From a virus, in IMG/VR virus record IMGVR_UViG_3300037585_005278, positions 1-26,125 of that record: a DNA stretch of 26,125 bases; one strand, written 5' to 3'. Below are positions 1,500-19,556 of this stretch, piece after piece. A program made the position numbers and the translations under genes. Under the pieces are notes generated by a model. The model worked only from the letters and a program-made list of their open reading frames with translations, was not told the DNA's origin and did not search any database. Positions within the stretch are counted from its first letter, which is position 1, and every line of letters begins with the position of its first letter.

Positions 1500-1843
1500 A
1501 AAAGCTACTAACAGAGTGGCGGAAGTTTTTGAAAGAGGATAAGTCTTCCCATTATCATTCTTATGAGCCAAGCGAGGAAATAAAACAGATTATCACCGAC
1601 AACGACGAGAAGGTTGTCTCTGCTTGCCGAATACCAGGCAATTGTCAGGATGAAAGTTATGCGTGGGCTAAGGTTTTCAGAGATGCTGGAATTGATGTAG
1701 AGATTCACCACGGAATGTATAAAGACCAAGGGCACACTTGGCTCGTTGTTGATGGAGACATTTTCGACCCAACCGCACGACAATTTGAAGACTTCCCAAA
1801 TATGGAAGAATTTGAATATTCGACGCACGAAGTAGAAGACTAA
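1496..1843 (+). CDS. Leader-bearing small Cys-His-Asp protein (transglutaminase/papain-like), copy 1
   Basis: 115 residues. The ATG at 1496 is chosen over an in-frame upstream start (1421) because it begins exactly at the shared leader MKKLLTEWRKFLKE and overlaps the previous stop. After the leader the body has Cys50 in GNCQDESYAWAKVFRDAGI, then GHTWLVVDGDIFDPTARQF with His80 and Asp91. A cysteine on a helix, then HxW on a strand, then an Asp on the next strand is the layout of transglutaminase-like and NlpC/P60-like cysteine enzymes, so a peptidase, amidase or cross-linking role is possible. The protein is much shorter than most members. The gene at 2504 is a diverged paralogue with the same three positions. 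Leader residues 12-14 (LKE) fit the prohead-protease cleavage rule, suggesting packaging in the capsid. Function is inferred from motif order only. Confidence 0.6.
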   Translation: MKKLLTEWRKFLKEDKSSHYHSYEPSEEIKQIITDNDEKVVSACRIPGNCQDESYAWAKVFRDAGIDVEIHHGMYKDQGHTWLVVDGDIFDPTARQFEDFPNMEEFEYSTHEVED

Positions 1844-1844
1844 A

Positions 1845-2507: not shown

Positions 2508-2875
2508 AAAAACTACTAACAGAGTGGCGGAAGTTTTTAAAAGAAGGTGCCCGACAGCCTTGGCTATCTCAAAGCCCATCGCCCGAGTTAGCCGCAGCAA
2601 TAGCGGACAACCATGAACGATCACAACAACATTTGTGCGACATAGGTCGTCCGCTTGATTCCTGCGATGCGAACACCGACTTCTGGCTAAAAGCCTTATC
2701 CGACGCTGGGTTTGATGCCCGAGATGTAAGAGATGGTTTGTTTGATGATGACGGAGAAATGGTTGGACACGACTGGATTGTTATTAATGATAATGGATCA
2801 GAGATTATATTTGACGCAGCGGCAGAACAATTTGATACCGAACCCTTTGCGGACAAATACACAGAGGTTTATTAG
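2504..2875 (+). CDS. Leader-bearing small Cys-His-Asp protein (transglutaminase/papain-like), copy 2
   Basis: 123 residues with a GTG start at 2504 inside the previous gene's stop. The leader is MKKLLTEWRKFLKE, identical to the copy at 1496. The body aligns with that gene: Cys54 in DSCDANTDFWLKALSDAGF, then GHDWIVINDNGSEIIFDAAAEQF with His89 and Asp104. Overall similarity outside these blocks is low, so the pair diverged long ago or under strong selection even though their leaders stayed the same. Likely a cysteine-type hydrolase or transferase fold, assigned only from the Cys-His-Asp order and spacing. It ends with TAG at 2873-2875, immediately followed by the next GTG start. If the leader is cleaved after Glu14, the mature protein would be about 109 residues. 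Confidence 0.58.
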   Translation: MKKLLTEWRKFLKEGARQPWLSQSPSPELAAAIADNHERSQQHLCDIGRPLDSCDANTDFWLKALSDAGFDARDVRDGLFDDDGEMVGHDWIVINDNGSEIIFDAAAEQFDTEPFADKYTEVY

Positions 2876-3394
2876 GTGAAGCAACTACTAACAGAGTGGC
2901 GACGATATTTAAACGAAATAATCCAAGGCGGGGTCTATGACGAGAGCAAGGGCACCTACACTAAAACAATAGCTGCTGGTGTCGCACCCCAACGAAAAAA
3001 AGAAATACAACTTTATAAAGACGCCATTGGGCAAGAATACATAAGAGGCGTAGCCAAAGTCTACAATGTGACCGACAATGAAGATGGAAGCGTAACAATA
3101 GAGATGGAGCATGTCTTGCCATATGATAATTCAAAAGGGGCTTATGGAGATATTGGAGATGCACGCTATCATGCCCTGCGGTGTATCGCCGCTGGCAGGA
3201 ATTGTGTTGATGAGTATGGTAAGCTCAACGATGAAGAGTATGAGATGGCTTTAGGGTTTCACAAAGATATAAAAGCAGCAGCAAAATATTTCAGAACATC
3301 GGGCGGCAAGATGGATGACAATCCTGGCAACTACGGCTTTGCCGAACGCAACGGTCGCCTTGAGTTAGTCTTTTTGGACTTTGGTCATGGGTAG
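2876..3394 (+). CDS. Leader-bearing miniature protein-kinase-fold protein
   Basis: 172 residues, GTG start directly after the previous stop. The leader is VKQLLTEWRRYLNE. The body shows the landmarks of a small kinase fold in the right order: a candidate ATP-binding Lys30 in YTKTI; Glu43 in RKKEIQLYKDA, as in helix C; a strand-hinge segment VTIEMEHVLPYD (73-84); a catalytic-loop-like D147-D-N-P-G-N152, matching the DxxxxN spacing; and D168-F-G as in the Mg-binding DFG motif. The catalytic-loop HRD histidine is not evident and the protein is far shorter than a typical 250-residue kinase, ending two residues after DFG, so there is no activation segment or C-terminal helical part. It may be a phosphotransferase of atypical type or a pseudokinase. 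With its leader it would be a candidate packaged effector. Confidence 0.55.
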   Translation: MKQLLTEWRRYLNEIIQGGVYDESKGTYTKTIAAGVAPQRKKEIQLYKDAIGQEYIRGVAKVYNVTDNEDGSVTIEMEHVLPYDNSKGAYGDIGDARYHALRCIAAGRNCVDEYGKLNDEEYEMALGFHKDIKAAAKYFRTSGGKMDDNPGNYGFAERNGRLELVFLDFGHG

Positions 3395-3406
3395 GAGGTT
3401 TGCGAT

Positions 3407-3814
3407 ATGAAAAAACTACTAACAGAGTGGCGGAAGTTTATGAAAGAAGCAGACGACTTTGACTGGGATGCTTTCGGGTTTTCTGATGAAGAGCGTGGGG
3501 AACCAGAAGGACGCTCTTCTCATTACGATGATTTGGTTGGCTTAGACAGAGGCGATACTTTTACTATCGGCAACCGTAAGCCTGTTTATCGTGTTGTCGG
3601 AGCACTAACCGACAGAGGGGAAGCCAAGGGCTCACAAACCAAGTTGGTTGTTATTGACGGCTCTGCCGAGAGAAAGACCTACGAAATCAGAACAACCGGC
3701 GAAGATTATGAAGTAGGAGCCTTCGGAAAAGATGAGAACAATGAGCACACTATACTCGTTGGTAAGACAGGATTTGTCATGAACATCACCAAGCCTGCGG
3801 GAACAAATAAATAA
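3407..3814 (+). CDS. Leader-bearing protein of unknown function
   Basis: 135 residues. An AGGAGG Shine-Dalgarno at 3393-3398 precedes the ATG at 3407, the clearest ribosome site in this array. The leader reads MKKLLTEWRKFMKE; the triplet before the expected cut is MKE, not LKE. After an acidic stretch (ADDFDWDAFGFSDEERGE) the rest looks like a small beta-rich domain: alternating hydrophobic strands such as DTFTIGNRKPVYRVVGAL, TKLVVIDG, KTYEIRTTG and HTILVGKTGFVMNI. No catalytic motif is visible and I do not recognise the family. It is the last gene with leader family 1. A 26-base AT-rich gap follows before the membrane gene at 3841. Confidence 0.6.
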   Translation: MKKLLTEWRKFMKEADDFDWDAFGFSDEERGEPEGRSSHYDDLVGLDRGDTFTIGNRKPVYRVVGALTDRGEAKGSQTKLVVIDGSAERKTYEIRTTGEDYEVGAFGKDENNEHTILVGKTGFVMNITKPAGTNK

Positions 3815-3827
3815 AACAAACTTCCCA

Positions 3828-3837
3828 AACTATTTAC
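3828..3837 (+). promoter_or_regulatory. AACTATTTAC motif (possible phage promoter element)
   Basis: This 10-mer recurs exactly at 18740-18749 and 20218-20227, and with a final T at 21872-21881, always on the coding strand. Here and at 21872 it lies in a short non-coding gap. A promoter role is only a guess; the other two copies lie inside coding sequence. Confidence 0.2.
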
Positions 3838-3840
3838 TTT

Positions 3841-4344
3841 ATGGATAGAGAAAGGGAAGCGTGGCAAACTATAAAAGACAACGCCACATCTGATTACCAT
3901 CATGCCCAAGTGTATGACGCTACACCTGTGACCAAACCAAACTATATTACAGCAACCATATGGACGACCATCGTCGCCGTATTGGTGTGCGGTGTATTCT
4001 CAGGATTTATGCTTTACTTATATAATGAAAGCAACATAGAGGAAACTTTATCCAAGGCTGTCAATCAGGCGATTATTTCTCTGGAGCAGACGATAGAACT
4101 TCAAAGCAAAGAGATCAACAGCTTGAAGGAAGAAAATAAAAAGATATACAAACACCTACAACTCTGGACCCCTATGGATCTCCAAAACCTACGCCGTAAA
4201 TACGAGCGACAAAATAAACCGCCCACAGAAGACGACCTTTGGGATATAGGACCAGATATTATCATAAGGGGTAGAGCATTGCCTCCCCTTCGGAAACTAA
4301 GCCTGGAGGACAAAATATGCTTACCTTTCTTGGAATCATATTAA
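3841..4344 (+). CDS. Single-pass membrane protein with coiled coil
   Basis: 167 residues. A soluble N-terminus of about 35 residues is followed by one strong hydrophobic segment (about 36-60, TATIWTTIVAVLVCGVFSGF and on), then a helical charged region with heptad-like spacing (about 66-105, including LEQTIELQSKEINSLKEENK) and a basic/proline-rich tail. There is no signal peptidase site, so the protein probably stays anchored in the inner membrane. Its last 28 bases overlap the start of the M50 protease gene at 4317, so the two are probably co-translated. A membrane protein encoded directly with an intramembrane protease could be its substrate or partner, but that is inference from position only. 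It lacks the leader found in the genes on both sides. I do not recognise a family. Confidence 0.55.
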   Translation: MDREREAWQTIKDNATSDYHHAQVYDATPVTKPNYITATIWTTIVAVLVCGVFSGFMLYLYNESNIEETLSKAVNQAIISLEQTIELQSKEINSLKEENKKIYKHLQLWTPMDLQNLRRKYERQNKPPTEDDLWDIGPDIIIRGRALPPLRKLSLEDKICLPFLESY

Positions 4345-5117
4345 TTGTTATAACAGTTCATGAATTGGGTCACTATGTGGCTGCCCGAATGTGCGGGGTG
4401 GATGTAGAAGTTTTTTCTGTTGGCTTTGGCAAAGTGTTGCTGAAAAAAAGGCTGTGGGGGACTGAATGGCGTTTGTCGTTGCTTCCTATAGGCGGCTTTG
4501 TTAAAATGAAGGGCGACTCTGATTATAACAAGACGGATGACCCTTCAACTTTTTGGGGAACCCACCCTCTCAAGAGGGCTTGGATAGCCTTTGCTGGACC
4601 ATTAGTAAATCTACTTCTGCCATATCCTTTATATTTTGCCTTCATAGTAGGTCAACCATGGCCCGATGTTGTTGTGCCTCAAGGCGCAGAAGCTGCTCGA
4701 ATCGGCATCGTCGATGCTGCCGGGTTATCTCATCGTCTTGTGGTAAAATCCTATTCGGATATGGGGGCTGCTTTTAGACACAATACCGTTACCCGAACCC
4801 CCAAGCTCGAAGATTTAGGAGGTCCAGTTGCTATTTATGAAATTTCCTCAAAGGTACAAAAGCGTGCTATTGAGACTGAGGATTGGGGGTTTCTGATAGA
4901 CTGGCTTGTCTTTATGTCCATAAATTTGGGGATAATAAACCTGTTGCCAATCCCGGTTCTTGATGGCGGGCACATAACGATCTCTTTGGGTGAGGCTATT
5001 ACAAGACGCCGGATGTCTATAAAATCTCGTAATATTGCGACCTATATTGGGATTGCATTTGTGTTTGCCCTCATGGCACTGGCGATCACTTCGGACATGG
5101 TAAGAATTTTTGGCTAG
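4317..5117 (+). CDS. Site-2 (M50 family) intramembrane zinc metalloprotease, compact form
   Basis: 266 residues. The N-terminal membrane helix carries HELGH (15-19), the zinc-binding HExxH of site-2 proteases. Next come the family-typical GGFVKMKG (59-66) and FAGPLVN (92-98), and near the end NLLPIPVLDGGH (208-219), the variant NPDG motif whose Asp216 is the third zinc ligand. These are the expected elements of the RseP/S2P family, which cuts transmembrane substrates inside the bilayer, so all key catalytic residues appear present. The protein is much shorter than E. coli RseP (about 450 residues). The periplasmic PDZ region is reduced to a PDZ-like remnant around 115-155 (VPQGAEAARIGI, then AGLSHRLVV). 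C-terminal helices follow (about 190-210, 240-258). The gene overlaps the upstream membrane protein. Its role in a phage is unknown; it might act on an envelope stress factor or process its neighbour. Confidence 0.88.
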   Translation: MLTFLGIILIVITVHELGHYVAARMCGVDVEVFSVGFGKVLLKKRLWGTEWRLSLLPIGGFVKMKGDSDYNKTDDPSTFWGTHPLKRAWIAFAGPLVNLLLPYPLYFAFIVGQPWPDVVVPQGAEAARIGIVDAAGLSHRLVVKSYSDMGAAFRHNTVTRTPKLEDLGGPVAIYEISSKVQKRAIETEDWGFLIDWLVFMSINLGIINLLPIPVLDGGHITISLGEAITRRRMSIKSRNIATYIGIAFVFALMALAITSDMVRIFG

Positions 5118-5155
5118 AGGTGAACTATATAATATAACCCTAACAGGAGAGCAAA

Positions 5156-5422
5156 ATGAAACTCACAAAATCACAACTAAGAAACTTAGTTAAAGAAGAA
5201 TTATGTATCGTCACTGAAGAGCAAGAGGGCGACCGCCACTCCCAAGGGGAAAAGCTGTTTGATAGCGTAGAAAAGGATTTACCTGGAGCCTCTAGCAAAC
5301 TGAGTCAATGGTCGCTGCAACACGAGTATAGTGAGCGAGCCAAAGAAATGGGTCTTGACCATGACGCTGTATCTGATGCCATGGGGTTAGCAGGATATGG
5401 GAAGGTACATTCAGAATCATGA
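5156..5422 (+). CDS. Small leader-bearing (family 2) protein, unknown function
   Basis: 88 residues, preceded by AGGAGA at 5145-5150. The leader MKLTKSQLRNLVKEEL opens the second leader family; the expected cleavage triplet is VKE at 12-14. The rest is hydrophilic and mostly helical in character (DSVEKDLPGASSKLSQWSLQ), with no motif I can name. Its ATGA end (5419-5422) overlaps the next gene's start. If the leader is cut after residue 14, the mature product would be about 74 residues, within the size range of T4 internal proteins. Confidence 0.6.
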   Translation: MKLTKSQLRNLVKEELCIVTEEQEGDRHSQGEKLFDSVEKDLPGASSKLSQWSLQHEYSERAKEMGLDHDAVSDAMGLAGYGKVHSES

Positions 5423-5649
5423 AAATCACAAAACAACAACTACAGCAGATAATTAAAGAAGAGTTGCTCAAGGAAGCCTCGTTCCGTGACCTTCCTGGCA
5501 AAGAAGCAACACTAGACTTCCTAAAAACCGAACTAGGAAAATGGCGACCATCAGCACTAGAGTATTTGAAAACTCGTTTGGAGACCGAAAGGTTTGACCT
5601 GACACAAGAGGTGTTGGACATTATCGCAGGGTGGTCAAGGCTAAAATGA
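5419..5649 (+). CDS. Small leader-bearing (family 2) protein, unknown function
   Basis: 76 residues. The ATG lies inside the previous stop (ATGA, 5419-5422) and the end overlaps the next start in the same way (5646-5649), so the three genes are probably translated as a coupled set. The leader is MKITKQQLQQIIKEELLKE, containing two fitting triplets (IKE at 12-14 and LKE at 17-19). The body (about residues 20-76) looks all-helical, with KEATLDFLKTELGKW and SALEYLKTRLETERFDL. No family recognised. Confidence 0.6.
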   Translation: MKITKQQLQQIIKEELLKEASFRDLPGKEATLDFLKTELGKWRPSALEYLKTRLETERFDLTQEVLDIIAGWSRLK

Positions 5650-5894
5650 AAATCACCAAATCCCAACTAAAAAAGATAATCAAAGAAGAGCTTCAAGACT
5701 TATTCGAAGAGTATCTTTATGATTTTAGGGTGACCTTGTATGATAAGACAACCAATAAAATGGTTGGAAAGTCAGAAAGAGTTGACGCTCGTGATCCATC
5801 CCATGCCAAGACTTTGGTAAACACCAAGATGAAAGAAGCAGGATCAAATCTCAGAGCAAGCAACGCTTATAACCTTGACATTCCCAGAGATTAG
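5646..5894 (+). CDS. Small leader-bearing (family 2) protein, unknown function
   Basis: 82 residues. The ATG at 5646 is preferred to an in-frame start 15 bases upstream (5631), because it begins exactly at the leader MKITKSQLKKIIKEEL and makes the usual ATGA overlap. After the leader comes YDFRVTLYDKTTNKMVGKSERVDA, which looks like a beta hairpin, then a helical stretch SHAKTLVNTKMKEAG. That beta-alpha pattern resembles small single-domain phage proteins but matches nothing I can name. The gene ends at TAG 5892-5894, eight bases before the next start. Confidence 0.6.
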   Translation: MKITKSQLKKIIKEELQDLFEEYLYDFRVTLYDKTTNKMVGKSERVDARDPSHAKTLVNTKMKEAGSNLRASNAYNLDIPRD

Positions 5895-5902
5895 ATAATA
5901 AT

Positions 5903-6127
5903 ATGAAGATTACAAAATCTCAGTTGAGAAAAATAATCAAAGAAGAATTTCTAGCTGAGACTGCTAGAGAGCTAAAGGGCGATCCAATTGAGATATATGG
6001 GTCATTTGCCATGGCAGATCTGAAGCTAGATCACCTAAGCAACATGTTTCCGGAAGATGCCCAGACAGAAATCATAGAACTAAAAAAACACTTACAGTCT
6101 CTGAGAAAGGCTGTACTAGGAGTATAA
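5903..6127 (+). CDS. Small leader-bearing (family 2) protein, unknown function
   Basis: 74 residues; no convincing Shine-Dalgarno precedes the ATG at 5903, so expression may rely on re-initiation from the upstream gene. The leader MKITKSQLRKIIKEEF is the best match to the family consensus. The body appears helical (FAMADLKLDHLSNMFP, then QTEIIELKKHLQSLRKAVLG), suggesting a small helical hairpin or bundle. No catalytic residues or known family seen. Confidence 0.6.
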   Translation: MKITKSQLRKIIKEEFLAETARELKGDPIEIYGSFAMADLKLDHLSNMFPEDAQTEIIELKKHLQSLRKAVLGV

Positions 6128-6128
6128 G

Positions 6129-6353
6129 ATGAAAATCACAATTGAACAGATTGATAAAGTTGTCCGTGAGGTTCTAACGAAGCTCCGAGAAGATAAGTCC
6201 GGCAAAGGCAAGTGTCCTGATTCTGGCTGCATTACCAAGCGTGGTGATAAGTGGAGAATTATCAGCAACAAGACTGGTAAGCTCTGGCCTCAAACCTATG
6301 ATTCTGAAAAGTCAGCAGAAGACGCCCTAGACGCCTATCACGCATCCCGGTAA
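6129..6353 (+). CDS. Small protein with diverged leader and a short CxxxxC beta domain
   Basis: 74 residues, with GGAG at 6119-6122 and an ATG one base after the previous stop. The leader MKITIEQIDKVVREVL is the most diverged of the group but keeps a hydrophobic-x-Glu triplet (VRE) at 12-14. The remainder reads CPDSGCITKRGDKWRIISNK then TGKLWPQTYDSEKSAEDALD: two cysteines followed by a strand-turn-strand and a helix. I recall very similar short modules (CxxKRGDKWRIxSNKTGKLWPQxYDxxxSA) in many phage genomes, where they have no assigned role. The domain boundaries are clear but the function is not known. Confidence 0.62.
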   Translation: MKITIEQIDKVVREVLTKLREDKSGKGKCPDSGCITKRGDKWRIISNKTGKLWPQTYDSEKSAEDALDAYHASR

Positions 6354-6367
6354 TAAGAGAGATTAAG

Positions 6368-6751
6368 ATGAAAATCACAAAAACACAACTACGACAAATT
6401 ATCAAAGAAGAACTACAGAATGAGCTATTTGGCTTTGGTAAAAAGAAGTCTAAGCCTGAACCAGCACCTCAAGCCACACCTGAACCATCAGGAATAAAAG
6501 ACGAAGATAGACCGGTCAGTGTAGAAGTTGTACGAACCGCCCCTCAATCAAACAACGAGATTGAACTTGCTGATGAGCGAGCTTATAAGCTACTAATTCC
6601 TGCTGTCTTTGAATGGATGGAAAATAATGATCTTGAAAAATCTGATTATGGCATCACCGTCTCACCAAAGAATTATACACAAGAAGGTGGCCTACGCAAG
6701 TTTTACTACACTGTTCCTAAGGGCTTCTTGGAAATAACTTTCAAGGAGTAG
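6368..6751 (+). CDS. Leader-bearing (family 2) protein with proline-rich linker, unknown function
   Basis: 127 residues, the largest of this group. The leader MKITKTQLRQIIKEEL is followed by a basic then Pro/Glu-rich linker (about residues 22-45, KKKSKPEPAPQATPEPSG) and a C-terminal domain of about 80 residues (VSVEVVRTAPQ, LIPAVFEWMEN, DYGITVSPK, LRKFYYTVPKGFLEITF), probably alpha/beta. The leader, flexible linker, folded domain layout is what one expects if the leader is a removable sorting tag. The gene ends the leader-bearing array; a 93-base gap with a promoter follows. Confidence 0.6.
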   Translation: MKITKTQLRQIIKEELQNELFGFGKKKSKPEPAPQATPEPSGIKDEDRPVSVEVVRTAPQSNNEIELADERAYKLLIPAVFEWMENNDLEKSDYGITVSPKNYTQEGGLRKFYYTVPKGFLEITFKE

Positions 6752-6844: not shown

Positions 6845-9800
6845 ATGGTACGGCTCGCACATTTTGGTGATACTCATATTAAGAACCTCAAATATCATTA
6901 CGAATATCGTAAGGTCTTTGAGCAAGCTTATCAAATGCTACGAGAGCAGAAGGTGGATTACATTATCCACTGCGGCGATCTAGCCCACACAAAGACACAA
7001 CTCTCACCAGAATACTTTGAGTTGGCTACAGAGTTCCTAAAGAACCTGGCAGACATTGCCCCAACTCACATCATCTTGGGGAATCACGACGGCAACCTAC
7101 GAAACAGTAGTCGTCAGGATGCCATCACTCCAATCGTTGATGCGTTGAATCACCCGGACCTTCACCTGCACAAGTTTTCAGGGGAAGTAGAATTAGATAA
7201 TAACATTACACTAAATGTGTTATCTGTGTTTGATGAGACTAATTGGACTGACCCTACAAATACAGATCGTATCAATATTGCCTTATATCATGGAGCGGTC
7301 AACAACAGCCGAACTGACCTTGGTTGGATTATGGATCACGGCGACCACGATGTGTCTGTCTTCGATAAATTTGATTATGCCTTCCTCGGAGATATTCACA
7401 AAACTAATCAGTGTCTGAACGAGACGGGCACCATCCGCTATTGTGGTTCCACTATTCAACAGAACCATGGCGAGACAAACGACAAGGGTTTTCTAGTCTG
7501 GGATATTGAGGACAAGACTAACTATGAGGTCAGCCATCACATCCTAGAGAACCCTAAGCCCTTTAGTACGATTGAGCTAACGCCCAAGGGCAATATGCCC
7601 CGCAACCTAGAAATTCAACAGGGCTGCCGTCTTCGCATCGTTACTCACCATAAAGTATCCCTAGACAAGATCCGCCGGGTAATGGACACAGCGAAGAGCA
7701 AGTTCAAGCCCGAGAGCCTATCATTCGTGAACAAGGCAGGTCTAAAACGCTCTAGCGTAGATGTTGATGATCTTGGTAGTACAGAGAACCTACGAGACCC
7801 AGCAGTCCAAGAGCGACTTATTCGGGAATACTTAAAAGAATATGAACCCGACACTAAGACTCTGGAAAAAGTGTTTCAACTTAACTCCCGCTACGATGCT
7901 CGGGTCAACGGCGAGGACGCAAGCCACCGTAATGTCAACTGGTCCCTTAAGAATATACAGTTCGACAATCTCTTCAATTATGGAGAAGGAAACAGTGTTA
8001 ATTTTGAAAAGCTTAATGGCGTTGTCGGTATCTTTGGTAAGAACTATTCAGGCAAGAGTTCTATCATTGACAGTGCTCTGTATACTATCTACAACTCGAT
8101 TAGCAAGAACAATCGCAAGAATTTAAACATTATCAACCAGACTAAGCCAGCAGGTTGCGGTCGTGTTGAAATCGATATTGCTGGCAAGACTTATATTATC
8201 GAGCGTAAATCGGAAAAGTACACTAAAAAACTTCATGGCGAAGAGACAGAAGAAGCTAAGACCGATGTCGAGTTTACGATGATTGATCCAGCCACGGATG
8301 AGGTTGTTAGTCTTAATTCGCTTGATCGAAATGGGACTGATAAAGCCATCCGTAAAATCTTCGGCAGCCTCGACGACTTCTTGCTTACGAGTATGTCGAG
8401 CCAAATGGGTGCGATGACTTTTATTAACGAGGGTTCAACCAAGCGCAAAGAAATCCTAGCCAAGTTCTTGGACCTTGATCAGTTTGACAAGAAGTTTAAG
8501 CTTGCCAAGAATGACAGCATTGAGACCCGTGCTTTACTGAAGAAGCTTGAGGATAATACCTTTGACGAGGATATCATATCTTTACAGCATATGCTTGAGG
8601 TGAACAAGGAAGAAAAAACAAAACAAGAAAAATCTTGTAAAAAGTACAAAAAGAAGTTAAACAAAATTACTGATCGTGTCGATGAGATAGATAGCTTGTT
8701 TGCTGCCGCCCCTGTTGAGATAATTCATATCCAAAAAGAAAACAAGGACCTCAAGAAAGCAACAACAGAATTGCAGAAATCAAACCTCCAGATTTCCGGC
8801 GCTAAGACAAAAAAAGAAATACTACTTGCTAAGCTTCTCAAGCTCGATGAGTTTCTTGAGGGCTTTGATGTTGAAGTCTTGAATTCTAAAATTGATGAAG
8901 TTTTATGCATCAAAGAAGAGATAAGAGAACTAGAGACAAGTCTAAAGATCGAGACTCGAAATAAAGAAACATATGAAAAGAAGCTTAGCGTTCTTGACGA
9001 GGTGCCTTGTGGTCCTGATTGTGGTCTCCGAAAATATATCAAAGACGCCTACGAAGCAAAGCAAAGACTTTCAGAAACACGAATCACCATCTATAATCTA
9101 GAGACTGATTTACGCCACCGCAATGAGCAACTAGAAGAGATGGATGTGAATAGTCTCAGGGATCAGAAAGAAAAGTATGATCAACTTATCGATAAAAAAA
9201 GGTCCTTGTCCACGGAGGCAACCGGTTTAGATTTATTAGTTGAAAAAACAAATAATCATATAAACACGCTGAGCAACAAGATTATAAAAATCAATGAACG
9301 CATTCAGCTATACGAAGACAATAAAGAGGCAATCGAAAATAAAGAAGATCTAATCCTTGAACAGGACGAATTGACTGACCATAAGATTTTAGCTGAAAAT
9401 GAGTTATCTATCTGCGAAGCAAAGATCATGGACTTCATCAAACAGCACGGCGGGCTGGAACAACAAATTATTAATCTCCAAGAGAAAAAGCAGGAGCTTG
9501 AAGATCTCCGGACAGAATATTCAGCCTATGATTTGTTTATGCGGTGTACTCACAGCAACGGTATCAGCTATGATGTTGTGAAGCGGATGCTGCCTCTCAT
9601 TAACGAAGAGGTCAGCACGGTGCTAGCTAATGTCACCGACTTCGACATCTTTTTCGAGGCAGAAAAGAATAAGTTAGACATCTTCATCAAGCATCCAAAA
9701 TACGAAGCACGACCTTTAGAAATGGCTTCTGGAGCAGAGAAAACGCTTGCAGCGATTGCCATTCGCATCGCTCTAACCAATGTGTCAACCCTACCAAAAT

Positions 9801-9997
9801 CAGACATTATGATTATGGACGAGCCAGGCACAGCGTTGGACGCCGAAAACCTTGAAGGTTTTATGCGAGTGATGGAAATGATTAAGGGCTACTACAAGAC
9901 TGTGCTTTTGATTACTCACTTGGATAGTCTCAAAGATATTGCCGATATGACTATTGACATTGAGCGTCAAGATGGTTATGCTTATGTCAGTCAATAG
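6845..9997 (+). CDS. SbcD-SbcC (T4 gp47-gp46 type) fused nuclease/ATPase
   Basis: 1050 residues in one chain. Residues 1 to about 330 are an SbcD/Mre11-like phosphoesterase with GDTH (8-11), CGD (43-45), GNHD (79-82), YHG (148-150) and GDIH (182-185), the metal-binding motifs. From about 370 on is the SbcC/Rad50 ATPase: Walker A GKNYSGKSS (398-406), a long coiled-coil pair (about 550-900) with a hook CGPDC at 722-726, the signature ASGAEKT (961-967), Walker B IMIMDEPG (about 988-995) and a final ITH switch. T4 and E. coli encode the two subunits as separate adjacent genes; here they are joined with no intervening stop. The complex processes DNA ends in phage recombination, replication and host DNA breakdown. 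The hook spacing (Cys-x3-Cys) differs from the usual Cys-x2-Cys. Confidence 0.93.
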   Translation: MVRLAHFGDTHIKNLKYHYEYRKVFEQAYQMLREQKVDYIIHCGDLAHTKTQLSPEYFELATEFLKNLADIAPTHIILGNHDGNLRNSSRQDAITPIVDALNHPDLHLHKFSGEVELDNNITLNVLSVFDETNWTDPTNTDRINIALYHGAVNNSRTDLGWIMDHGDHDVSVFDKFDYAFLGDIHKTNQCLNETGTIRYCGSTIQQNHGETNDKGFLVWDIEDKTNYEVSHHILENPKPFSTIELTPKGNMPRNLEIQQGCRLRIVTHHKVSLDKIRRVMDTAKSKFKPESLSFVNKAGLKRSSVDVDDLGSTENLRDPAVQERLIREYLKEYEPDTKTLEKVFQLNSRYDARVNGEDASHRNVNWSLKNIQFDNLFNYGEGNSVNFEKLNGVVGIFGKNYSGKSSIIDSALYTIYNSISKNNRKNLNIINQTKPAGCGRVEIDIAGKTYIIERKSEKYTKKLHGEETEEAKTDVEFTMIDPATDEVVSLNSLDRNGTDKAIRKIFGSLDDFLLTSMSSQMGAMTFINEGSTKRKEILAKFLDLDQFDKKFKLAKNDSIETRALLKKLEDNTFDEDIISLQHMLEVNKEEKTKQEKSCKKYKKKLNKITDRVDEIDSLFAAAPVEIIHIQKENKDLKKATTELQKSNLQISGAKTKKEILLAKLLKLDEFLEGFDVEVLNSKIDEVLCIKEEIRELETSLKIETRNKETYEKKLSVLDEVPCGPDCGLRKYIKDAYEAKQRLSETRITIYNLETDLRHRNEQLEEMDVNSLRDQKEKYDQLIDKKRSLSTEATGLDLLVEKTNNHINTLSNKIIKINERIQLYEDNKEAIENKEDLILEQDELTDHKILAENELSICEAKIMDFIKQHGGLEQQIINLQEKKQELEDLRTEYSAYDLFMRCTHSNGISYDVVKRMLPLINEEVSTVLANVTDFDIFFEAEKNKLDIFIKHPKYEARPLEMASGAEKTLAAIAIRIALTNVSTLPKSDIMIMDEPGTALDAENLEGFMRVMEMIKGYYKTVLLITHLDSLKDIADMTIDIERQDGYAYVSQ

Positions 9998-10549: not shown

Positions 10550-10749
10550 GGGCTGGAGATTTAGTAAGATTCAGAGAGTGTACTTGGCATGTGGAACCAA
10601 AACAATATACTGACTGGAAAATTGGTCTGGTTTTAGAATATAAAACCTGGGAAAAAATTGCCAAGATAAGTTATGAAGGGCGCATAATTCGTGTCCGTGC
10701 CTCTGACACTCAGTTGCACCAACAAGTTAAAAGAAAACGAAACAACTAA
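10546..10749 (+). CDS. Small SH3-like beta-barrel protein, probable tandem relative
   Basis: 67 residues. It opens with MRAGDLVRFR, parallel to KPGDLVQ in the gene before, followed by WKIGLVLEYKTWEKIAKISY and EGRIIRVRASDTQL, then a very basic tail (QQVKRKRNN). The shared GDLV opening, GLV second strand and length suggest a tandem duplication with strong divergence. The basic tail may indicate nucleic-acid contact, but this is only a guess. ATGA overlap with the upstream gene suggests coupled translation. Confidence 0.52.
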   Translation: MRAGDLVRFRECTWHVEPKQYTDWKIGLVLEYKTWEKIAKISYEGRIIRVRASDTQLHQQVKRKRNN

Positions 10750-10777
10750 TTATATCTACACAGGAGGTGTTGTAGAT

Positions 10778-10963
10778 ATGCAAGAGAAAATTGATAAAGC
10801 ATTGGGTAAATGGGCATCCCGCAAACTTATAGTTTGGGGTACATCCACAGTTTTTTTAGCCATGGGTTCATTGACAAGTGGTGACTGGGTTGCAGTATCC
10901 TTAGCTTATATCGGATTGCAGGGTGCTGCTGATATTGCAGCTACTTGGAAACACGGCAAATGA
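10778..10963 (+). CDS. Small two-helix membrane protein, holin-like candidate
   Basis: 61 residues. The ATG at 10778 is chosen because a strong AGGAGGT lies at 10762-10768; an upstream in-frame start (10691) would run through the previous gene. A short amphipathic start (MQEKIDKALGKWASRK) is followed by two hydrophobic segments (about 17-32, LIVWGTSTVFLAMGSL, and 36-55, DWVAVSLAYIGLQGAADIAA) with a tight turn, then a basic end. Size, two helices and charged ends fit small class II-like holins, and similar sequences are called phage membrane proteins. No endolysin is visible nearby, so the holin label is tentative. The end overlaps the next gene (ATGA, 10960-10963). Confidence 0.5.
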   Translation: MQEKIDKALGKWASRKLIVWGTSTVFLAMGSLTSGDWVAVSLAYIGLQGAADIAATWKHGK

Positions 10964-11274
10964 ATTGGTTGTGGGTAAAAATCAAACAAGGCGCATGGAG
11001 GATCATTTTAGCGATCACCGTAGTCCTGGCTGTAGTTGTTTGGTTGTATAACATTGTACGCTCCTCTGAGGACAAGACACAGTTTCTAGAGGTCATACAG
11101 ACAAAAGTTACAACTGCTATAAAAGAAAATGAAATTCGTGCTACACTAGAAAAAGATAAAATCGGAGCCATCAAGAAAATCTACGATCGAAAAATCAAGG
11201 AAACAAAAAAGATTGAAGATCGTGAAGAAAGATTGAAGGCTCTAATTAGATTACACGAAGAACTAGATTTATAA
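10960..11274 (+). CDS. Membrane-anchored helical protein, inner-spanin-like candidate
   Basis: 104 residues from the ATG at 10960 in the upstream stop; an in-frame ATG at 10945 exists but lies within the holin-like gene. One N-terminal membrane helix (about 14-34, AWRIILAITVVLAVVVWLYN) is followed by a long charged helical region rich in Lys/Glu (KENEIRATLEKDKIGAIKKI, then KIKETKKIEDREERLKALI). A single N-terminal anchor with a periplasmic coiled coil is the design of Rz-type inner spanins, and the gene directly follows a holin-like gene. No outer-membrane lipoprotein partner is seen inside or next to it, so this is a topology-based guess. Confidence 0.45.
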   Translation: MNWLWVKIKQGAWRIILAITVVLAVVVWLYNIVRSSEDKTQFLEVIQTKVTTAIKENEIRATLEKDKIGAIKKIYDRKIKETKKIEDREERLKALIRLHEELDL

Positions 11275-11287
11275 GGAGACTAGTATC

Positions 11288-12445
11288 ATGGTAGACATCC
11301 CTACACTAGAGATAGAGGATTACGATCCAGAACTAAACGAAGAACAGGAAGCTGTTGCTGACCTTTCCGGCGGTGCGCTGACTTACGCAATTGTTGGCGC
11401 TGGGCAAGGCGGTGGTCGAATGGCTAAAGCCTTTTACGATATGGGTTACACCAAAACGGTGGCAGTCAATACTGCTCGTTCTGATCTTAATGGACTGGAC
11501 TTGCCGGATAATCAGAAGTTTTTAGTAGATGAACATGGCGAGCAGGGCGCTGGTAAAGACCAGGCTAAAGCCCAGGCTGCTATTGAGCGCAAAGAGCAGG
11601 AGGTCTTTAATAAATTTCGTGAGATCTTTGGGAACAATGTAGACAGGGTCGTTATTTGTCTTGGGGTTTCTGGTGGCTCAGGCGGCGGAACAGTTAATAC
11701 ACTTATAAGGGTTGCTAAAAAATACTTCACTTATATTGGCGTAGAAGATGTAGATAAGAGAGTGGGAGTGATCGCATCTCTGCCTACCGCTGGTGAATCT
11801 GCTTCTCCGACGGTGGCTAATAATGCCCACCATCGTATGACTCAGTTATGTGACCTGGCAGAGAAAGGGGAGATTGCTCCCCTGATCATGGTGGACAACG
11901 AGAAGATTAAAAAACTTTACCCAAAACTTACAGTCAAGAAGTTCTGGACCACGATCAATAATACAGTAGCTGGTTTGTTTCATGTCTTCAATGTGCTAGC
12001 AAATAAAGATTCAGAATACACCACCTTTGATGCTACGGATTATGATAGTATTATGCGCCAATCTGGGTGTATGATTATGGGTGTCACAAGTGTAAAAGAG
12101 GTTGAAAGCGAGACAGCTATTTCGTCCGCATTGAAGAAGAATCTAGAAAAGACACTTCTTGCTGAGGGCTTTGACCTTACAACCGCTACGGGTGCTGCTT
12201 GCATCGTAGTTGGTGGCGAAGAAATTTTTGAGGAGACTGTTGGATTAATGGACAGTATTGAATTTGGTTTCGATACTTTAGCTGCTTTGACGGGCGGCGC
12301 TATTATCCATCGTGGCATCTATGAGGATGACAAAAGAGACAAACTAGTCACATATACGCTGGTAAGCGGCTTGGACCGCCCACAGAAGCGCATTGATGGT
12401 TTGAAGAAGTTCATCACGGACACAAAGAAAAAACGAAAGAAGTAA
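11288..12445 (+). CDS. Phage tubulin/FtsZ-family GTPase
   Basis: 385 residues, with AAGGAG ahead of the ATG. The GTP-binding motifs of the tubulin superfamily are in order: T1 GAGQGGG (37-43), NT (61-62) as in the NTD of FtsZ, T3-like EQGAGKDQ (85-92), T4 GVSGGSGGGT (126-135, the signature corresponding to GGGTGTG), DNEKIKKL (203-210), and T7-like FDATDYDSIM (247-256), whose acidic residues would complete the active site of the next subunit. A hydrophobic MIMG stretch (262-265) follows T7, as in FtsZ. It begins with an acidic extension of about 30 residues and ends with a basic tail (KKKRKK), unlike the acidic tail of PhuZ. It probably polymerises and could position phage DNA or a replication body. 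It lies just upstream of the packaging genes. Subfamily (PhuZ, TubZ, other) cannot be decided by eye. Confidence 0.85.
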   Translation: MVDIPTLEIEDYDPELNEEQEAVADLSGGALTYAIVGAGQGGGRMAKAFYDMGYTKTVAVNTARSDLNGLDLPDNQKFLVDEHGEQGAGKDQAKAQAAIERKEQEVFNKFREIFGNNVDRVVICLGVSGGSGGGTVNTLIRVAKKYFTYIGVEDVDKRVGVIASLPTAGESASPTVANNAHHRMTQLCDLAEKGEIAPLIMVDNEKIKKLYPKLTVKKFWTTINNTVAGLFHVFNVLANKDSEYTTFDATDYDSIMRQSGCMIMGVTSVKEVESETAISSALKKNLEKTLLAEGFDLTTATGAACIVVGGEEIFEETVGLMDSIEFGFDTLAALTGGAIIHRGIYEDDKRDKLVTYTLVSGLDRPQKRIDGLKKFITDTKKKRKK

Positions 12446-12446
12446 A

Positions 12447-12827
12447 GTGAAGAAACTTGTTTCTCTCATAGTCTTGTTTTCGTATACGGCTGCTGCTGGC
12501 GAGGTTACAGAATTTAAGCCTCGACCAGCAGTGGTCGAACAAGGTAGCGACTCTTATGTGGGAATTCTCTTAAGTGAGGAAGATTTTAGAAATCTTTTGC
12601 AAGATAAGATTGACTCTAATGCTAAGATTGCAAACTGCTCTGTGGATAAGCAGGTGTGCATAAAGGTCCAGGAGGCATACAGAGTTTCGATGGTGGCACT
12701 ACAGGAAGATATCAAAAAAAATAACACCTGGTTCAAAAGGAACAAAGGCGCTCTAGGTTTGTTGAGTGGTTTAGTCATCGGTGTTGGTACTTCCATTGCC
12801 ATTGTGCGGGCAGTCAACGGACAATGA
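12447..12827 (+). CDS. Secreted/envelope protein with signal peptide and C-terminal membrane helix
   Basis: 126 residues with a GTG start two bases after the tubulin-like gene. Residues 1-17 (MKKLVSLIVLFSYTAAA) form a typical signal peptide with an AxA cleavage site. The mature part has a segment GILLSEEDFRNLLQDKI, two cysteines (64 and 71) that may form a disulphide, a helical region and a C-terminal hydrophobic segment (about 102-121, ALGLLSGLVIGVGTSIAIV). Phage envelope proteins with a signal peptide, a helical body and a C-terminal helix often occur in lysis regions, and this may belong with the holin/spanin-like genes before the tubulin-like gene. The role is unproven. It shares an ATGA with the next gene (12824-12827). 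Confidence 0.5.
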   Translation: MKKLVSLIVLFSYTAAAGEVTEFKPRPAVVEQGSDSYVGILLSEEDFRNLLQDKIDSNAKIANCSVDKQVCIKVQEAYRVSMVALQEDIKKNNTWFKRNKGALGLLSGLVIGVGTSIAIVRAVNGQ

Positions 12828-13240
12828 AGGATAAAGATTACAATTACATTGCAGCCGTGGAAAAAGCCATAGTACAAAAATATGGCAAAGAGACTGTGCA
12901 GGATTTTCGATCTCAGTGGGAAGAGGATAGAGAAAAGTCATATCTAGAGCAGTTAAAGGTCCGTCGAGAAAAAGGATATAAAAAACAACACAAAGAGGTT
13001 GTTACAGTGTGCGAGGATACAATAATTCACCAGAGACCGATCCAGGCATCCGGAGATAGGACCTGTCCAGTCTGTAAAACATATTCATTTTCCGCAAAGG
13101 ACGACCTATATATGAATAGGTTCAAAAGCTGTTATCGCTGTTATATTGATTTTATTGAAAATCGTGAAGAGCGATGGAACGAAGGCTGGAGACCAAACCA
13201 AGAGCATCTTGATGGATGTCTTATAAGGAGAAAGAAATAA
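12824..13240 (+). CDS. Zinc-ribbon protein of unknown function
   Basis: 138 residues. A charged helical N-terminal half (VEKAIVQKYG, WEEDREKSYLEQLKVRREKG) is followed by a four-cysteine zinc ribbon: CPVC (81-84) and CYRC (103-106), 18 residues apart, then a helical aromatic segment (FIENREERWNEGW). The zinc site is convincing; the partner (DNA, RNA or protein) is not shown. Position ahead of terminase could hint at a packaging or late-transcription accessory, and no small terminase subunit is otherwise visible, but nothing here looks like a DNA-binding small terminase. Overlaps both neighbours (ATGA and TAATG). Confidence 0.55.
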   Translation: MKDKDYNYIAAVEKAIVQKYGKETVQDFRSQWEEDREKSYLEQLKVRREKGYKKQHKEVVTVCEDTIIHQRPIQASGDRTCPVCKTYSFSAKDDLYMNRFKSCYRCYIDFIENREERWNEGWRPNQEHLDGCLIRRKK

Positions 13241-13791
13241 TGGCCTCTGTAATGGAAGTAATAACTTGTTTGAACCAAATCGCCGCTAATTCATATGATG
13301 ATGGTGTGTTGGAGGGAATTGGATTAAACCGTGAAGAGGGTCACCCCATCCTGGACAGCCGACTAATCGACGGCTTTCGTGTGCGCTTCGCAGCAGACCA
13401 GATGATTGTATCTTATCAGGCGGAAATGCACCTAAATGAGGTTCACCCACGAAATCAATTTGAAAACGAGATCGAGCGTAAGTTCGCTGATATCGTAAAA
13501 TTCTTGAAGAAAGAATATAAGGTAATCAAGAAGCAGCCTGTGACCTTGACCTCGGAAGCAGATGCACAGATGATTGTTCAGACTACCTCTCGTTACCATA
13601 CTTGGGTTCAAGCAAATAAGATCTATCGCATTGGTGGTCTCTCTGAGAGTACAGATGGTGTTAAGAAGAGTAGTGAAAATTCCGCAGCCTCGCCATTTGA
13701 GAAGAGGTTTAAAGACTTTTTAGAGCTTTCCACAGACAAACGCCCACCAAACGATACCTCCAAAAAGAATCCTGATACTCCGGAGGCATAA
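13240..13791 (+). CDS. Conserved phage protein upstream of terminase, unknown function
   Basis: 183 residues from the ATG at 13240 (TAATG overlap), supported by AAGGAG at 13225-13230; a start at 13216 would sit upstream of that site. Residues 1 to about 135 form an apparent alpha/beta domain (VMEVITCLNQIAANSYDDG, SRLIDGFRVRFAADQMIVSY, ENEIERKFADIVKFLKKEY, AQMIVQTTSRYHTWV). The last 45 residues are Ser/Pro/Lys-rich and probably disordered. I recall similar proteins beginning VMEVITCLNQ in T4-like marine phages, always without assigned function. It directly overlaps the terminase start (TAATG), so it may be a structural or packaging factor. Confidence 0.6.
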   Translation: MASVMEVITCLNQIAANSYDDGVLEGIGLNREEGHPILDSRLIDGFRVRFAADQMIVSYQAEMHLNEVHPRNQFENEIERKFADIVKFLKKEYKVIKKQPVTLTSEADAQMIVQTTSRYHTWVQANKIYRIGGLSESTDGVKKSSENSAASPFEKRFKDFLELSTDKRPPNDTSKKNPDTPEA

Positions 13792-15362
13792 TGCCATCTA
13801 ACAAGCAGGAAGTGATGGCGGAGATTGTCCGCTGCGGCAAAGACCCTGCTTATTTCTGTAACAAGTACGCTAAGATTTCTCACCCGATGAAGGGGTTGAT
13901 CCCTTTTGAGATGTACAAGTTTCAGGAAGAAGCACTGACAGACTTCAAAAAGAACCGCTTTAGCGTTATTTTAAAAGCTAGGCAGCTAGGCATTTCCACT
14001 ACTGTGGCGGCTTATGTATGTTGGATGATGTTGTTTCATCGAGATAAGAATGTCTTAGTTGTTGCAACCAAACTCGGCACGGCTACCAATATGGTCAAGA
14101 AGACCAAGGCTATTCATAAGCATCTTCCGGATTGGTTGAAGATAGCTAGTATTTCGATTGATAACAGAACATCTTTTGAACTTAGTAATGGTTCCCAAGT
14201 TAAGGCTTCTTCGACTTCCGGCGACGCTGGTCGTTCTGAGGCACTCTCTCTGCTCGTGGTGGATGAAGCTGCCTTTGTAGATGGCATGGAAGAACTGTGG
14301 GCGGGACTTTATCCTACCTTGTCAACTGGTGGTAGGTGTATCGCTCTCTCAACACCTAACGGTGTTGGTAACTGGTTCCACAAGACTTATACTGAAGCTG
14401 AAGAAAAGAAAAACGACTTCCATACAATTAAGCTACCATGGGAGGTTCATCCGGATAGGGACCAAGAGTGGTTCCAAAAAGAAACCCGGAATATGTCTAA
14501 GAGGGAAATCGCCCAAGAGCTTGAGTGTAATTTCAATGCTTCTGGTGAGACTGTCGTGCATGGGGACGATTTAGGAAGAATCCTTTCCGCAGTTTCGGAC
14601 CCCGTTCATAAGACAGGTTTTGATCGCAATTATTGGATTTGGAAAGAGCCGGATATAAACGGTCAGTATATCCTAGTAGCCGATGTGGCGAGAGGAGACG
14701 GCTCAGATTTTAGTGTGGCTCATGTCTTCGATGTGGCTACCATGGAGCAAGTAGCAGAGTATCAGGGCAAAATCACGCCAGACATGTTTGCTCCATTGCT
14801 TCATTCCATAGCTTCTGAGTATAATGATGCTCTGCTAATCATTGAGAATAATTCGCTAGGTATCGGCGTCCTGACTCGATTGCAGGATTTAGACTATAAA
14901 AATTTATATTATAGTGTAAAATCTACTCACGAATATGTAGATGAAGTCACGGCACAAGCTTTAGGCGGAGTGGCAGGGTTTACAATGTCGATGAAAACAA
15001 GACCGCTTGTTATAGCCAAATTTGAGGAATTCGTGAGAAATAAACTAATTACTATTAATTCTATTCGTTTTGCTAACGAGATTAAGACCTTTGTTTGGCA
15101 TAACGGTAGACCGCAGGCGATGCGTAGTTATAATGATGACCTAGTTATCGCTGCATGTATTGGTTGCTGGGTAAGAGGAACTGCATTGACCGCCAACCGG
15201 CGTGAGGAAAATTTCAAGAAAGCTCTTTTAGATAGTATTTCTATTGGCGGAACAAAAATGAACACTAAGATTGAAGGTCAACATGGATACAAACCACCTT
15301 CAGGTAAATTCCGAGGCGCTGACGGAAGACTACACGATCTAGACTGGATAATCAAAGGATAA
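13791..15362 (+). CDS. Terminase large subunit (T4 gp17-like)
   Basis: 523 residues, a normal size. The ATPase half has a Walker A variant KARQLGIST (62-70), Walker B LLVVDE (154-159) followed by AAFVDG, and a coupling motif STPN (187-190). The nuclease half has an RNase-H-like acidic set: VADVARGDGSDFS (D298), LLIIENNSLG (E352) and SYNDDLVIA (D449/D450). Together they drive DNA packaging through the portal and cut concatemers. The portal gene follows after three bases. In T4 the tail sheath and tube genes lie between terminase and portal; here the two are adjacent. AAGGA near 15353-15358 serves the portal start. Confidence 0.95.
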   Translation: MPSNKQEVMAEIVRCGKDPAYFCNKYAKISHPMKGLIPFEMYKFQEEALTDFKKNRFSVILKARQLGISTTVAAYVCWMMLFHRDKNVLVVATKLGTATNMVKKTKAIHKHLPDWLKIASISIDNRTSFELSNGSQVKASSTSGDAGRSEALSLLVVDEAAFVDGMEELWAGLYPTLSTGGRCIALSTPNGVGNWFHKTYTEAEEKKNDFHTIKLPWEVHPDRDQEWFQKETRNMSKREIAQELECNFNASGETVVHGDDLGRILSAVSDPVHKTGFDRNYWIWKEPDINGQYILVADVARGDGSDFSVAHVFDVATMEQVAEYQGKITPDMFAPLLHSIASEYNDALLIIENNSLGIGVLTRLQDLDYKNLYYSVKSTHEYVDEVTAQALGGVAGFTMSMKTRPLVIAKFEEFVRNKLITINSIRFANEIKTFVWHNGRPQAMRSYNDDLVIAACIGCWVRGTALTANRREENFKKALLDSISIGGTKMNTKIEGQHGYKPPSGKFRGADGRLHDLDWIIKG

Positions 15363-15365
15363 AAA

Positions 15366-17237
15366 ATGGCAGACAATAATTCAAACAATAATAATCCTAG
15401 AAACGATGCTTCTCCTCTCTTCCGCCGGCTTACCCGGCTTTTTAGTGGTCCTATCGTAAATTATGATAGACCCGCTGTTATTCGAGGTACCAGAAGAGAT
15501 GTTCAGAAGTATACATTTACAAGCGGAACCGGGAAAGAGTTTAAGAAGAAAGAGTATTACAACCCCTTTGGTCAGTTGAGCAATGGAGTTCTGTATGCCC
15601 GCAATAAGCAGGTTAGATATACTGATTTTGATCAAATGGAATACATGCCAGAAATAGCTTCCGCTTTGGACATCTATGCTGACGAAATTACCACCTCAAC
15701 AGCTTTTAATCCTATAGTCAGTATTGACTGTCATAACCGTGAGATTACAGAAATTCTTAATACTCTGTTGTTCACAGTTCTCAATGTTGAGTCAAATTTA
15801 TTTGGTTGGTCACGAAGTATGTGCAAATATGGGGATTATTATCTTTATTTAGATATTGATGACACCTTGGGCATTACTAACGCTATTCCGCTTCCTGTAA
15901 GATCTATGGAACGGATTGAGGGAACCGACCCCACTAACCCCAATTATATTCAATACTTTTGGCAAGGGGCCGAGGGTAACAAAGGTGTCAGTTTTGAGAA
16001 CTGGCAGGTTTCTCATTTCCGAGTTATCGGGAATGATCGGTATGTCCCCTACGGGACTTCTGTCCTTGAGCCCTCCCGTAGAATATGGCGGCAGCTTACC
16101 TTGCTTGAAGATGCCATGATGGCATACCGTATTGTTCGCTCTCCTGAGCGTCGTGTTTTTTATATTGATGTGGGAAACATTTCTCCCGAAGATGTAGAAC
16201 AGTACATCGAACAAGTAAAAACACAAATGAAAAGAAACCAGGTGGTGGATGAACAGACTGGTCAGGTTGACCTTCGCTATAATGCAATGAGTGTAGACGA
16301 GGATTATTATATTCCTATTCGTGGAAACACCAGCAATACTCGTATCGAAACTTTGGCTGGCGGTCAATTTACGGGAGACATCGATGATGTCAACTATCTT
16401 CGTGATAAATTATTCTCGGCACTCAAGGTACCAAAAGCTTATTTAGCACAGGCAGATACTGTAGAGGACAAGACTACACTATCACAGAAGGATGTGAGAT
16501 TCTCCAGGACAATCCAGCGACTTCAAAGAGTTGTCATAGCTGAGATAGAAAAGATGTGTATCATCCATCTTTATACTTTGGGATTCCGAGATGCTGATCT
16601 TACATCTTTTAAGCTCAGTCTGAATAACCCTTCTAAGATTGCCGAACTTCAAGAGCTTGAGCACTTGCGTACTAAGTTTGATATTGCAGGCTCAGCCACA
16701 GAAGGCTTCTTCTCTCGTAACTGGGTATATAAGAACATCTTCAAGATTGCAAACGAAGACATTGATAGGATCCAAATTGAGCTTTACGGCGACGCCAAGC
16801 TTGGTGCAGCCCTAGAGGAGGCTGGAACGGTACCAGAATCTGGGGACATGGGTGGCGACTTAGGACTTGGAGATGACGACTCAGGCAGTCTCGACCTCGG
16901 CGGCGATGCCGGCGGCGACATTCCTGGCGACGATGACGCATCTGATGGTCCTCTTCTAGCAGAGCCCGAACCAGCCCAAAGAGACGACAAAAGAAGCACA
17001 TCCGGACCAAGATTGAGAAGCATGAACGGTCAATATAACAAGGAAGCTGCTTCTCGGACAAAAAGAACCCTATATAAAGGGGATGATATCTTCGCTGGCA
17101 TGAAGCAAATGGGAAGACTTCAGAACGGCATTGCAACCGAGAACCTAGATAAAGAAGAAAAGTTACTGTTCAGTACTCAGTTTGAAATAAACAAACTCAT
17201 AGAACAATTGGGAAACAAAGATGAAGGTCAAGCATAA
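15366..17237 (+). CDS. Portal protein (T4 gp20-like)
   Basis: 623 residues, larger than T4 gp20 (524) because of a C-terminal tail. Portal hallmarks of this family are the early segment YADEITTS after MEYMPEIASALD, the conserved FRVIGNDRYVPYGTSVLEPSRRIWRQLTLLEDAMMAYRIVRSPERRVFYIDVGN block (broken here as FRVIGNDRYVPYGTS, RRIWRQLTLLEDAMMAYRI and PERRVFYIDVGN), the YIPIRG segment, and a clip-to-wing part with LFSALKVPKAYL. Residues about 490-550 form a Gly/Asp low-complexity stretch (GDMGGDLGLGDDDSG), probably disordered and perhaps facing the head interior. It forms the dodecameric DNA entry ring on which the prohead is built. The last 17 bases overlap the next gene. Confidence 0.93.
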   Translation: MADNNSNNNNPRNDASPLFRRLTRLFSGPIVNYDRPAVIRGTRRDVQKYTFTSGTGKEFKKKEYYNPFGQLSNGVLYARNKQVRYTDFDQMEYMPEIASALDIYADEITTSTAFNPIVSIDCHNREITEILNTLLFTVLNVESNLFGWSRSMCKYGDYYLYLDIDDTLGITNAIPLPVRSMERIEGTDPTNPNYIQYFWQGAEGNKGVSFENWQVSHFRVIGNDRYVPYGTSVLEPSRRIWRQLTLLEDAMMAYRIVRSPERRVFYIDVGNISPEDVEQYIEQVKTQMKRNQVVDEQTGQVDLRYNAMSVDEDYYIPIRGNTSNTRIETLAGGQFTGDIDDVNYLRDKLFSALKVPKAYLAQADTVEDKTTLSQKDVRFSRTIQRLQRVVIAEIEKMCIIHLYTLGFRDADLTSFKLSLNNPSKIAELQELEHLRTKFDIAGSATEGFFSRNWVYKNIFKIANEDIDRIQIELYGDAKLGAALEEAGTVPESGDMGGDLGLGDDDSGSLDLGGDAGGDIPGDDDASDGPLLAEPEPAQRDDKRSTSGPRLRSMNGQYNKEAASRTKRTLYKGDDIFAGMKQMGRLQNGIATENLDKEEKLLFSTQFEINKLIEQLGNKDEGQA

Positions 17238-18962: not shown

Positions 18963-19556
18963 ATGAATAAAAAATATGTACTACAAGAATTTATGAACCT
19001 CGATTACAGTGATGAACTTCTCACAGAAGAAGAGCGTGAAGGTAATCGCAGCGGCACTCACCTTATTGTGGCAGGTAAAATCCAATGCGCCGAAGCTAAG
19101 AATGGTAATGGTCGTATTTATCCTCGCCCAATTCTGGAACGAGAAATAAAAAACTACTCGAAGCTTGTAAAAGAAGGGCGTGCTATTGGCGAACTAGATC
19201 ACCCCGACACTTCTGTTGTGGAGCTTAAGAACGCCAGTCATGTAATCACTGAAGTGTGGTGGAAGGGTGACGATGTAATGGGCAAGATGAAAATCCTCGG
19301 CACCCCCGCCGGACAGATAGCGAGACAGTTAGTGGAAGGCGGAGTTCAGCTAGGAATATCTAGTCGTGGACTAGGGTCAACCAGGCAAGAGAATGGCGCT
19401 ACTATGGTAGAGGACGACTTCCAATTGCTATGTTTTGATTTGGTTTCTGAACCCAGCACTGACGGCGCATTTCTCGTTGCTGAAAATAAAATCAAAACAT
19501 ATCTCACAAAGGCTGATAGGATCAATAGAGCCCTTAACGATGTTTTGGGTAACTAA
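18963..19556 (+). CDS. Prohead maturation protease (T4 gp21-like)
   Basis: 197 residues, close to T4 gp21 (212). It carries the herpesvirus-assemblin-like serine protease signature of phage prohead proteases: GKIQCAEAKNGNGRIYPRPI (38-57), GELDHP with catalytic His80, and GISSRGLGS (131-139) with the nucleophile Ser at 133 or 134. In T4 the enzyme cuts scaffold, capsid protein and internal proteins after (I/L)-x-E. Such sites are visible here in the capsid protein (LKE, 56-58) and in the leaders of at least a dozen other genes in this window. AAGGAG at 18951-18956 gives a good start. The core gene at 19571 follows after 14 bases. Confidence 0.92.
   Translation: MNKKYVLQEFMNLDYSDELLTEEEREGNRSGTHLIVAGKIQCAEAKNGNGRIYPRPILEREIKNYSKLVKEGRAIGELDHPDTSVVELKNASHVITEVWWKGDDVMGKMKILGTPAGQIARQLVEGGVQLGISSRGLGSTRQENGATMVEDDFQLLCFDLVSEPSTDGAFLVAENKIKTYLTKADRINRALNDVLGN

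Follow-up and report, generated by a model that had tools for sequence, protein, structure and literature searches.

The window analysed here, the whole 26,125-nucleotide stretch of IMG/VR virus record IMGVR_UViG_3300037585_005278, carries a gene for a tubulin-superfamily GTPase at positions 11288–12445 of the forward strand. The gene starts with ATG, encodes 385 amino acids plus a stop, and is preceded by an AAGGAG ribosome-binding site (11273–11278) that is kept in relatives. The three loops by which an earlier sequence-only reading, the first-pass annotation, had recognised the protein are present: T1 GAGQGGG (residues 37–43; 11396–11416), the tubulin signature T4 GVSGGSGGGT (residues 126–135; 11663–11692) and T7 FDATDYD (residues 247–253; 12026–12046). 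Further upstream, at 11297–11326, lies a conserved N-terminal motif, IPTLEIEDYD, which is predicted to be disordered.

The T4-like head module reported alongside the gene was confirmed with PHROGs, which identified a T4-like terminase large subunit (13791–15362), a T4 gp20-like portal protein (15366–17237), a prohead protease (18963–19556) and a T4 gp23-like major head protein (22946–24697), all on the forward strand. Three small ORFs (12447–13791) separate the tubulin gene from the terminase gene. The immediate neighbours, both on the forward strand, encode a small protein with a membrane-like segment (residues 13–41) followed by a charged helical part (10945–11274; weak match to phrog_1009, of unknown function) and one with a C-terminal membrane-like segment (residues 101–123; 12447–12827). 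Each is present in 28 of 28 terminase-selected loci, with median identities of 61% and 66%, respectively. The small membrane-type proteins on either side of the tubulin gene (10691–11274 and 12447–12827) could be spanin- or holin-like lysis proteins. Elsewhere in the window, serial ORFs at 1421–6751 have common N-termini (for example MKKLLTEWRKFLKE and MKITKSQLRKIIKEEL) that resemble capsid-targeting leaders of internal head proteins; within this region, an ORF at 4317–5117 with HELGHY and several hydrophobic stretches has the look of an M50 site-2 protease. A single ORF of 1050 amino acids (6845–9997) combines SbcD-like and SbcC-like parts (phrog_100, phrog_77).

The protein belongs to the tubulin/FtsZ superfamily, having a GTPase domain with T1, T4 and T7 and the tubulin fold. 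It matches the Pfam models PF00091 (Tubulin; 37 bits, cut-off 33) and PF22453 (TubZ-like_C; 33.5 bits, cut-off 26), and has no PHROGs family. A profile search of the PDB returned TubZ/RepX (2e-16), CetZ (9e-12) and FtsZ (5e-7). In an alignment of 29 diverse phage relatives, G37, G39, Q40, G42, G43 and the T4 glycines are kept. Loss of the catalytic aspartates in homologues and an unrelated predicted fold were both checked for, as proposed by the first-pass annotation: the two catalytic-position residues of T7, D248 and D251, are invariant in 29/29 of these sequences, and the AlphaFold model (pLDDT 84.7, pTM 0.86; confident except for residues 1–22) is closest to TubZ in VIA-align (Z = 37.5 over 338 residues; the next TubZ, 36.6), followed by CetZ (Z = 34.7) and FtsZ (Z ~30). 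Foldseek with the same model also returned TubZ as the best match. One relative (L067, 256–1356) lacks nine residues including T1; it could be a dead copy or the product of misassembly.

Two terminal features had been proposed to set the protein apart from PhuZ. Of these, the acidic N-terminal extension was confirmed; it is conserved, with disorder predicted. The basic C-terminal tail, TDTKKKRKK, was dropped as a family trait because it is not conserved among the closest relatives: the match reaches residue 385 in only two of them (L006 and L007), and most others stop at about KKFL. The N-terminal motif was also considered as a packaging signal used across the phage and dropped, since the tubulin was its only carrier when two long genomes were scanned with a regular expression. 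The DIPxL motif may resemble the FtsZ C-terminal peptide.

A tblastn search with the window tubulin gave no match in 50,697 INPHARED phage records, nor did the single protein find anything in genome contigs at first; a profile was needed. Relatives were found in IMG/VR, in 91 stretches with the single-protein search and 174 with the profile search. The tubulin gene is present in all 62 de-duplicated contigs that extend 2.6 kb or more beyond this terminase on its upstream side, and in 28 of 28 when the contigs are chosen by terminase; the latter is the fairer count, since some of the 62 were fetched by the tubulin itself. Across the 28 loci, the tubulin has a median identity of 90% to that of the window, compared to 84% for the terminase, 74% for the portal and 58–66% for the flanking small genes. 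With a pN of 0.064 and a pS of 0.79, the latter saturated, among the 28 terminase-selected relatives, the tubulin is under strong purifying selection. It is thus a core gene of a group of large uncultured phages, present in every genome that could be checked, a status that the first-pass annotation had missed.

The longest relatives measure 178,630 bp (G001) and 190,528 bp. The former is probably complete, since it has a 98-bp repeat at its ends; the latter has a 112-bp repeat near its ends and encodes a contractile tail sheath, a DnaB-like helicase, a phrog_405 DNA polymerase, a UvsX-like recombinase, a ribonucleotide reductase and GroEL. No PF00091 match was obtained in the isolates closest in terminase and major head protein, namely a Flavobacterium phage, a Microcystis phage and Rhodothermus phage RM378, or in two huge uncultured phages. 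The 178,630-bp genome also carries a phage tmRNA (144108–144430, complement) with the tag ANDDFQLALAA. Phage-encoded GroEL is present in four of the genomes (G001, G002, G003 and G010). A link between tubulin and GroEL was considered and dropped, as GroEL also occurs in the tubulin-less Flavobacterium phage; phiKZ had none, nor did the remaining tubulin records covered by the search, of which several are fragments.

The position of the gene before the terminase had been taken to suggest a role in DNA or prohead positioning. The position itself holds, with the three small ORFs in between. The function read from it does not follow: phages with tubulins 62–70% identical to that of the window have terminases only 33–40% identical to the window's, or none near the gene, and their tubulin neighbours differ, being PhoH/PIN genes in one clade and dUTPase and RecA genes in another. 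Because the contexts differ among these divergent phages, the neighbourhood says little on function.

The nearest cellular kin, also missed by the first-pass annotation, came from a profile search of 84,980 GTDB species genomes, which yielded 28 loci with 36–52% identity, mostly titled Planctomycetota, Phycisphaerae or Sedimentisphaerales. The closest cellular relatives of the phage tubulin, at ~50% identity, are encoded on chromosomes within a single planctomycete order. One lies within a 2.96 Mb chromosome and others on contigs of 130–221 kb, and their neighbours, inspected by eye, are housekeeping genes (panC, folK, gapdh, pgk, accD and csrA). Of 118 sampled genomes of the order to which the 2.96 Mb chromosome belongs, 23 carry the gene, as do 4 of 392 in a sample of the phylum, all four of which are also on that order's list. 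A member filed under Omnitrophota (L214; 1 of 193 genomes in that phylum) may be a mis-binned contig or a transfer. Planctomycetes have been reported to lack ftsZ and to divide without FtsZ (PMC6952346, PMC12283558). No FtsZ_C match was detected in 10 of 10 gene-bearing genomes (nine planctomycete and the one filed as Omnitrophota), while 13 of 14 control genomes were positive. Neither paper mentions the tubulin family, and no description or published name for it was found in the open-licence full-text literature.

The window tubulin fits this family, with ~50% identity across the whole domain, the GTPase loops and the N-terminal motif in common. The planctomycete members (L201–L226 and L229–L242, chromosomal and of one order) differ in mostly carrying a long lysine/arginine-rich, histone-H1-like N-terminal tail of 50–270 residues, after which comes [IL]PxL[DE]LExYE, the equivalent of the phage IPTLEIEDYD. 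With thresholds of 40 residues or more and a lysine-plus-arginine content above 25%, 19 of 29 distinct ORFs have a tail of this kind, the content commonly being 32–46%; some bacterial members lack it (L203, L205), and it is absent from the window protein and the other phage copies. L205, L207 and L223 are tandem paralogues with a C-terminal AAA_lid_14 domain (an AAA+ lid) and, by eye, a Fis-like helix-turn-helix.

Two further phage clades were recovered besides that of the window (clade A). Clade B comprises seven viral contigs (L313–L319) and L228, which was binned with a bacterium yet lies on a contig encoding phage-like genes; its members are ~38% identical to the window tubulin. Clade N (L322–L329 and L376) is ~50% identical to both clade A and the bacterial sequences. 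In the largest tree, which holds all three phage clades, the bacteria form one clade (100/98) and phage A another (99/97), with the bacterial clade between N and A+B; a single all-phage clade was not rejected (AU p = 0.305), and the deep branches are long. In the phylogeny called for in the first-pass annotation, TubZ branches apart from both the phage and the planctomycete tubulins, and PhuZ, CetZ and FtsZ also lie on branches of their own, though branches are long and the deep order shifts between trees. One speculative history, to which we give a rather low probability, is that FtsZ-less planctomycetes captured a tubulin from a family found across several lineages of large phages and fused it to histone-like tails, giving a chromosome-linked cytoskeleton, with the phage copies acting as nucleus-independent DNA-positioning filaments.

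Among characterised tubulins, CetZ (of Haloarchaea and Methanosaeta) shares the fold and a GQxGGK/R-type T1 loop, but is archaeal and only ~23% identical. FtsZ shares the superfamily and fold at ~21% identity, and the window protein has no match to the FtsZ C-terminal domain. Descriptions of phage tubulins come mainly from the nucleus-forming Chimalliviridae, the few exceptions being scattered (PMC11835377, PMC13282480). PhuZ, from these phages, is likewise a tubulin of large phages of lytic type, and the first-pass annotation was right to set the window protein apart from it: phiKZ PhuZ matches PF22334 at 128 bits, whereas a scan of the window protein to E = 1 listed no such match, and PhuZ lies on a very long separate branch. 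PhuZ is also dispensable and found in only 66% of chimallin phages (PMC10299810), compared to the universal presence of the tubulin in the window's group. The suggested search for nucleus genes was negative: neither the chimallin model PF25677 nor the RNA-polymerase beta model PF00562 matched in four long relatives (G001–G004, 120–190 kb), with phiKZ as positive control. The chimallin model covers Phikzvirus only, so that a very divergent shell could have been missed, and the window is itself a 26 kb fragment; since the long relatives show neither a chimallin of Phikzvirus type nor RNA-polymerase beta, a phiKZ-type nucleus is not indicated. A spindle of PhuZ type serving a phage nucleus, to which the large phage, the tubulin and the nearby head genes might have pointed, was rejected on the lack of PF22334, PF25677 and PF00562 matches, and we consider it very improbable.

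On balance, and with modest confidence, we favour the reading that the protein forms a GTP-driven filament, core to a lineage of contractile-tailed phages of ~170–190 kb, that, with no protein nucleus involved, positions phage DNA or segregates it. The gene would supply an active GTPase of TubZ-like fold, which, judging from its fold and loops, would assemble into filaments in the infected cell. Phage DNA is the suggested cargo by analogy with the planctomycete homologues, through their histone-like tails and AAA-lid/Fis-like C-terminus, and proheads are an alternative cargo. The conservation of the disordered N-terminal motif suggests that it may dock the filament to a partner. Counting against a DNA filament, the basic tail is missing from the phage copies, which would have to bind DNA through some adaptor, and there are no nearby iterons and no recognisable TubR-like gene. 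In addition, phages can do without PhuZ, the best-known analogue, which also occurs in only part of its group, in contrast to the universal presence of the window tubulin in its own.

The closest known system in structure is TubZ/RepX of Bacillus plasmids and phage c-st, and TubZ of phage c-st has been reported as a partition system. A TubZ-type partition function, by which a phage genome in a plasmid-like or pseudolysogenic state would be retained as cells divide, would account for the best structural match, the TubZ-like C-terminal domain and the shared GTPase loops. However, median identity to plasmid TubZ is only 21–25%, the gene adjoins head genes in the packaging region, and neither an iteron array of centromere repeats nor an adjoining TubR partner was found; no DNA-binding Pfam match was obtained in the four flanking genes scanned, a result to be read with the high divergence of TubR, which could also lie elsewhere. 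The N-terminal motif conserved in the phage tubulin has, for TubZ, no description that we found in the literature. We regard partition of this kind as unlikely. The hijack of a host filament deserves about as little weight. The phage protein would co-assemble with, cap or poison a related host tubulin and so block chromosome segregation or division, having retained the docking motif and lost the basic DNA-binding tail. Kin at ~50% identity that share the motif and bear the tails missing from the phage copies, in planctomycete genomes without FtsZ, speak for such a hijack. It needs a planctomycete host with its own copy, however, and none of 298 genomes of that planctomycete class contained the major head protein of the phage, a count that is uninformative on its own for the host. 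Moreover, an identity of ~50% is on the low side for co-assembly, the kin are confined to a minority of genomes of one order, and the GTPase residues, superfluous in a pure poison, are intact.

If the preferred reading of a DNA-positioning filament is true, a tubulin that is core to widespread uncultured phages and works independently of a nucleus would mean that spatial organisation by a phage tubulin needs no nucleus. On the cellular side, the tubulin with a DNA-binding-like tail in one order of the planctomycetes, bacteria reported to divide without FtsZ, is a candidate for studies of chromosome handling or division.
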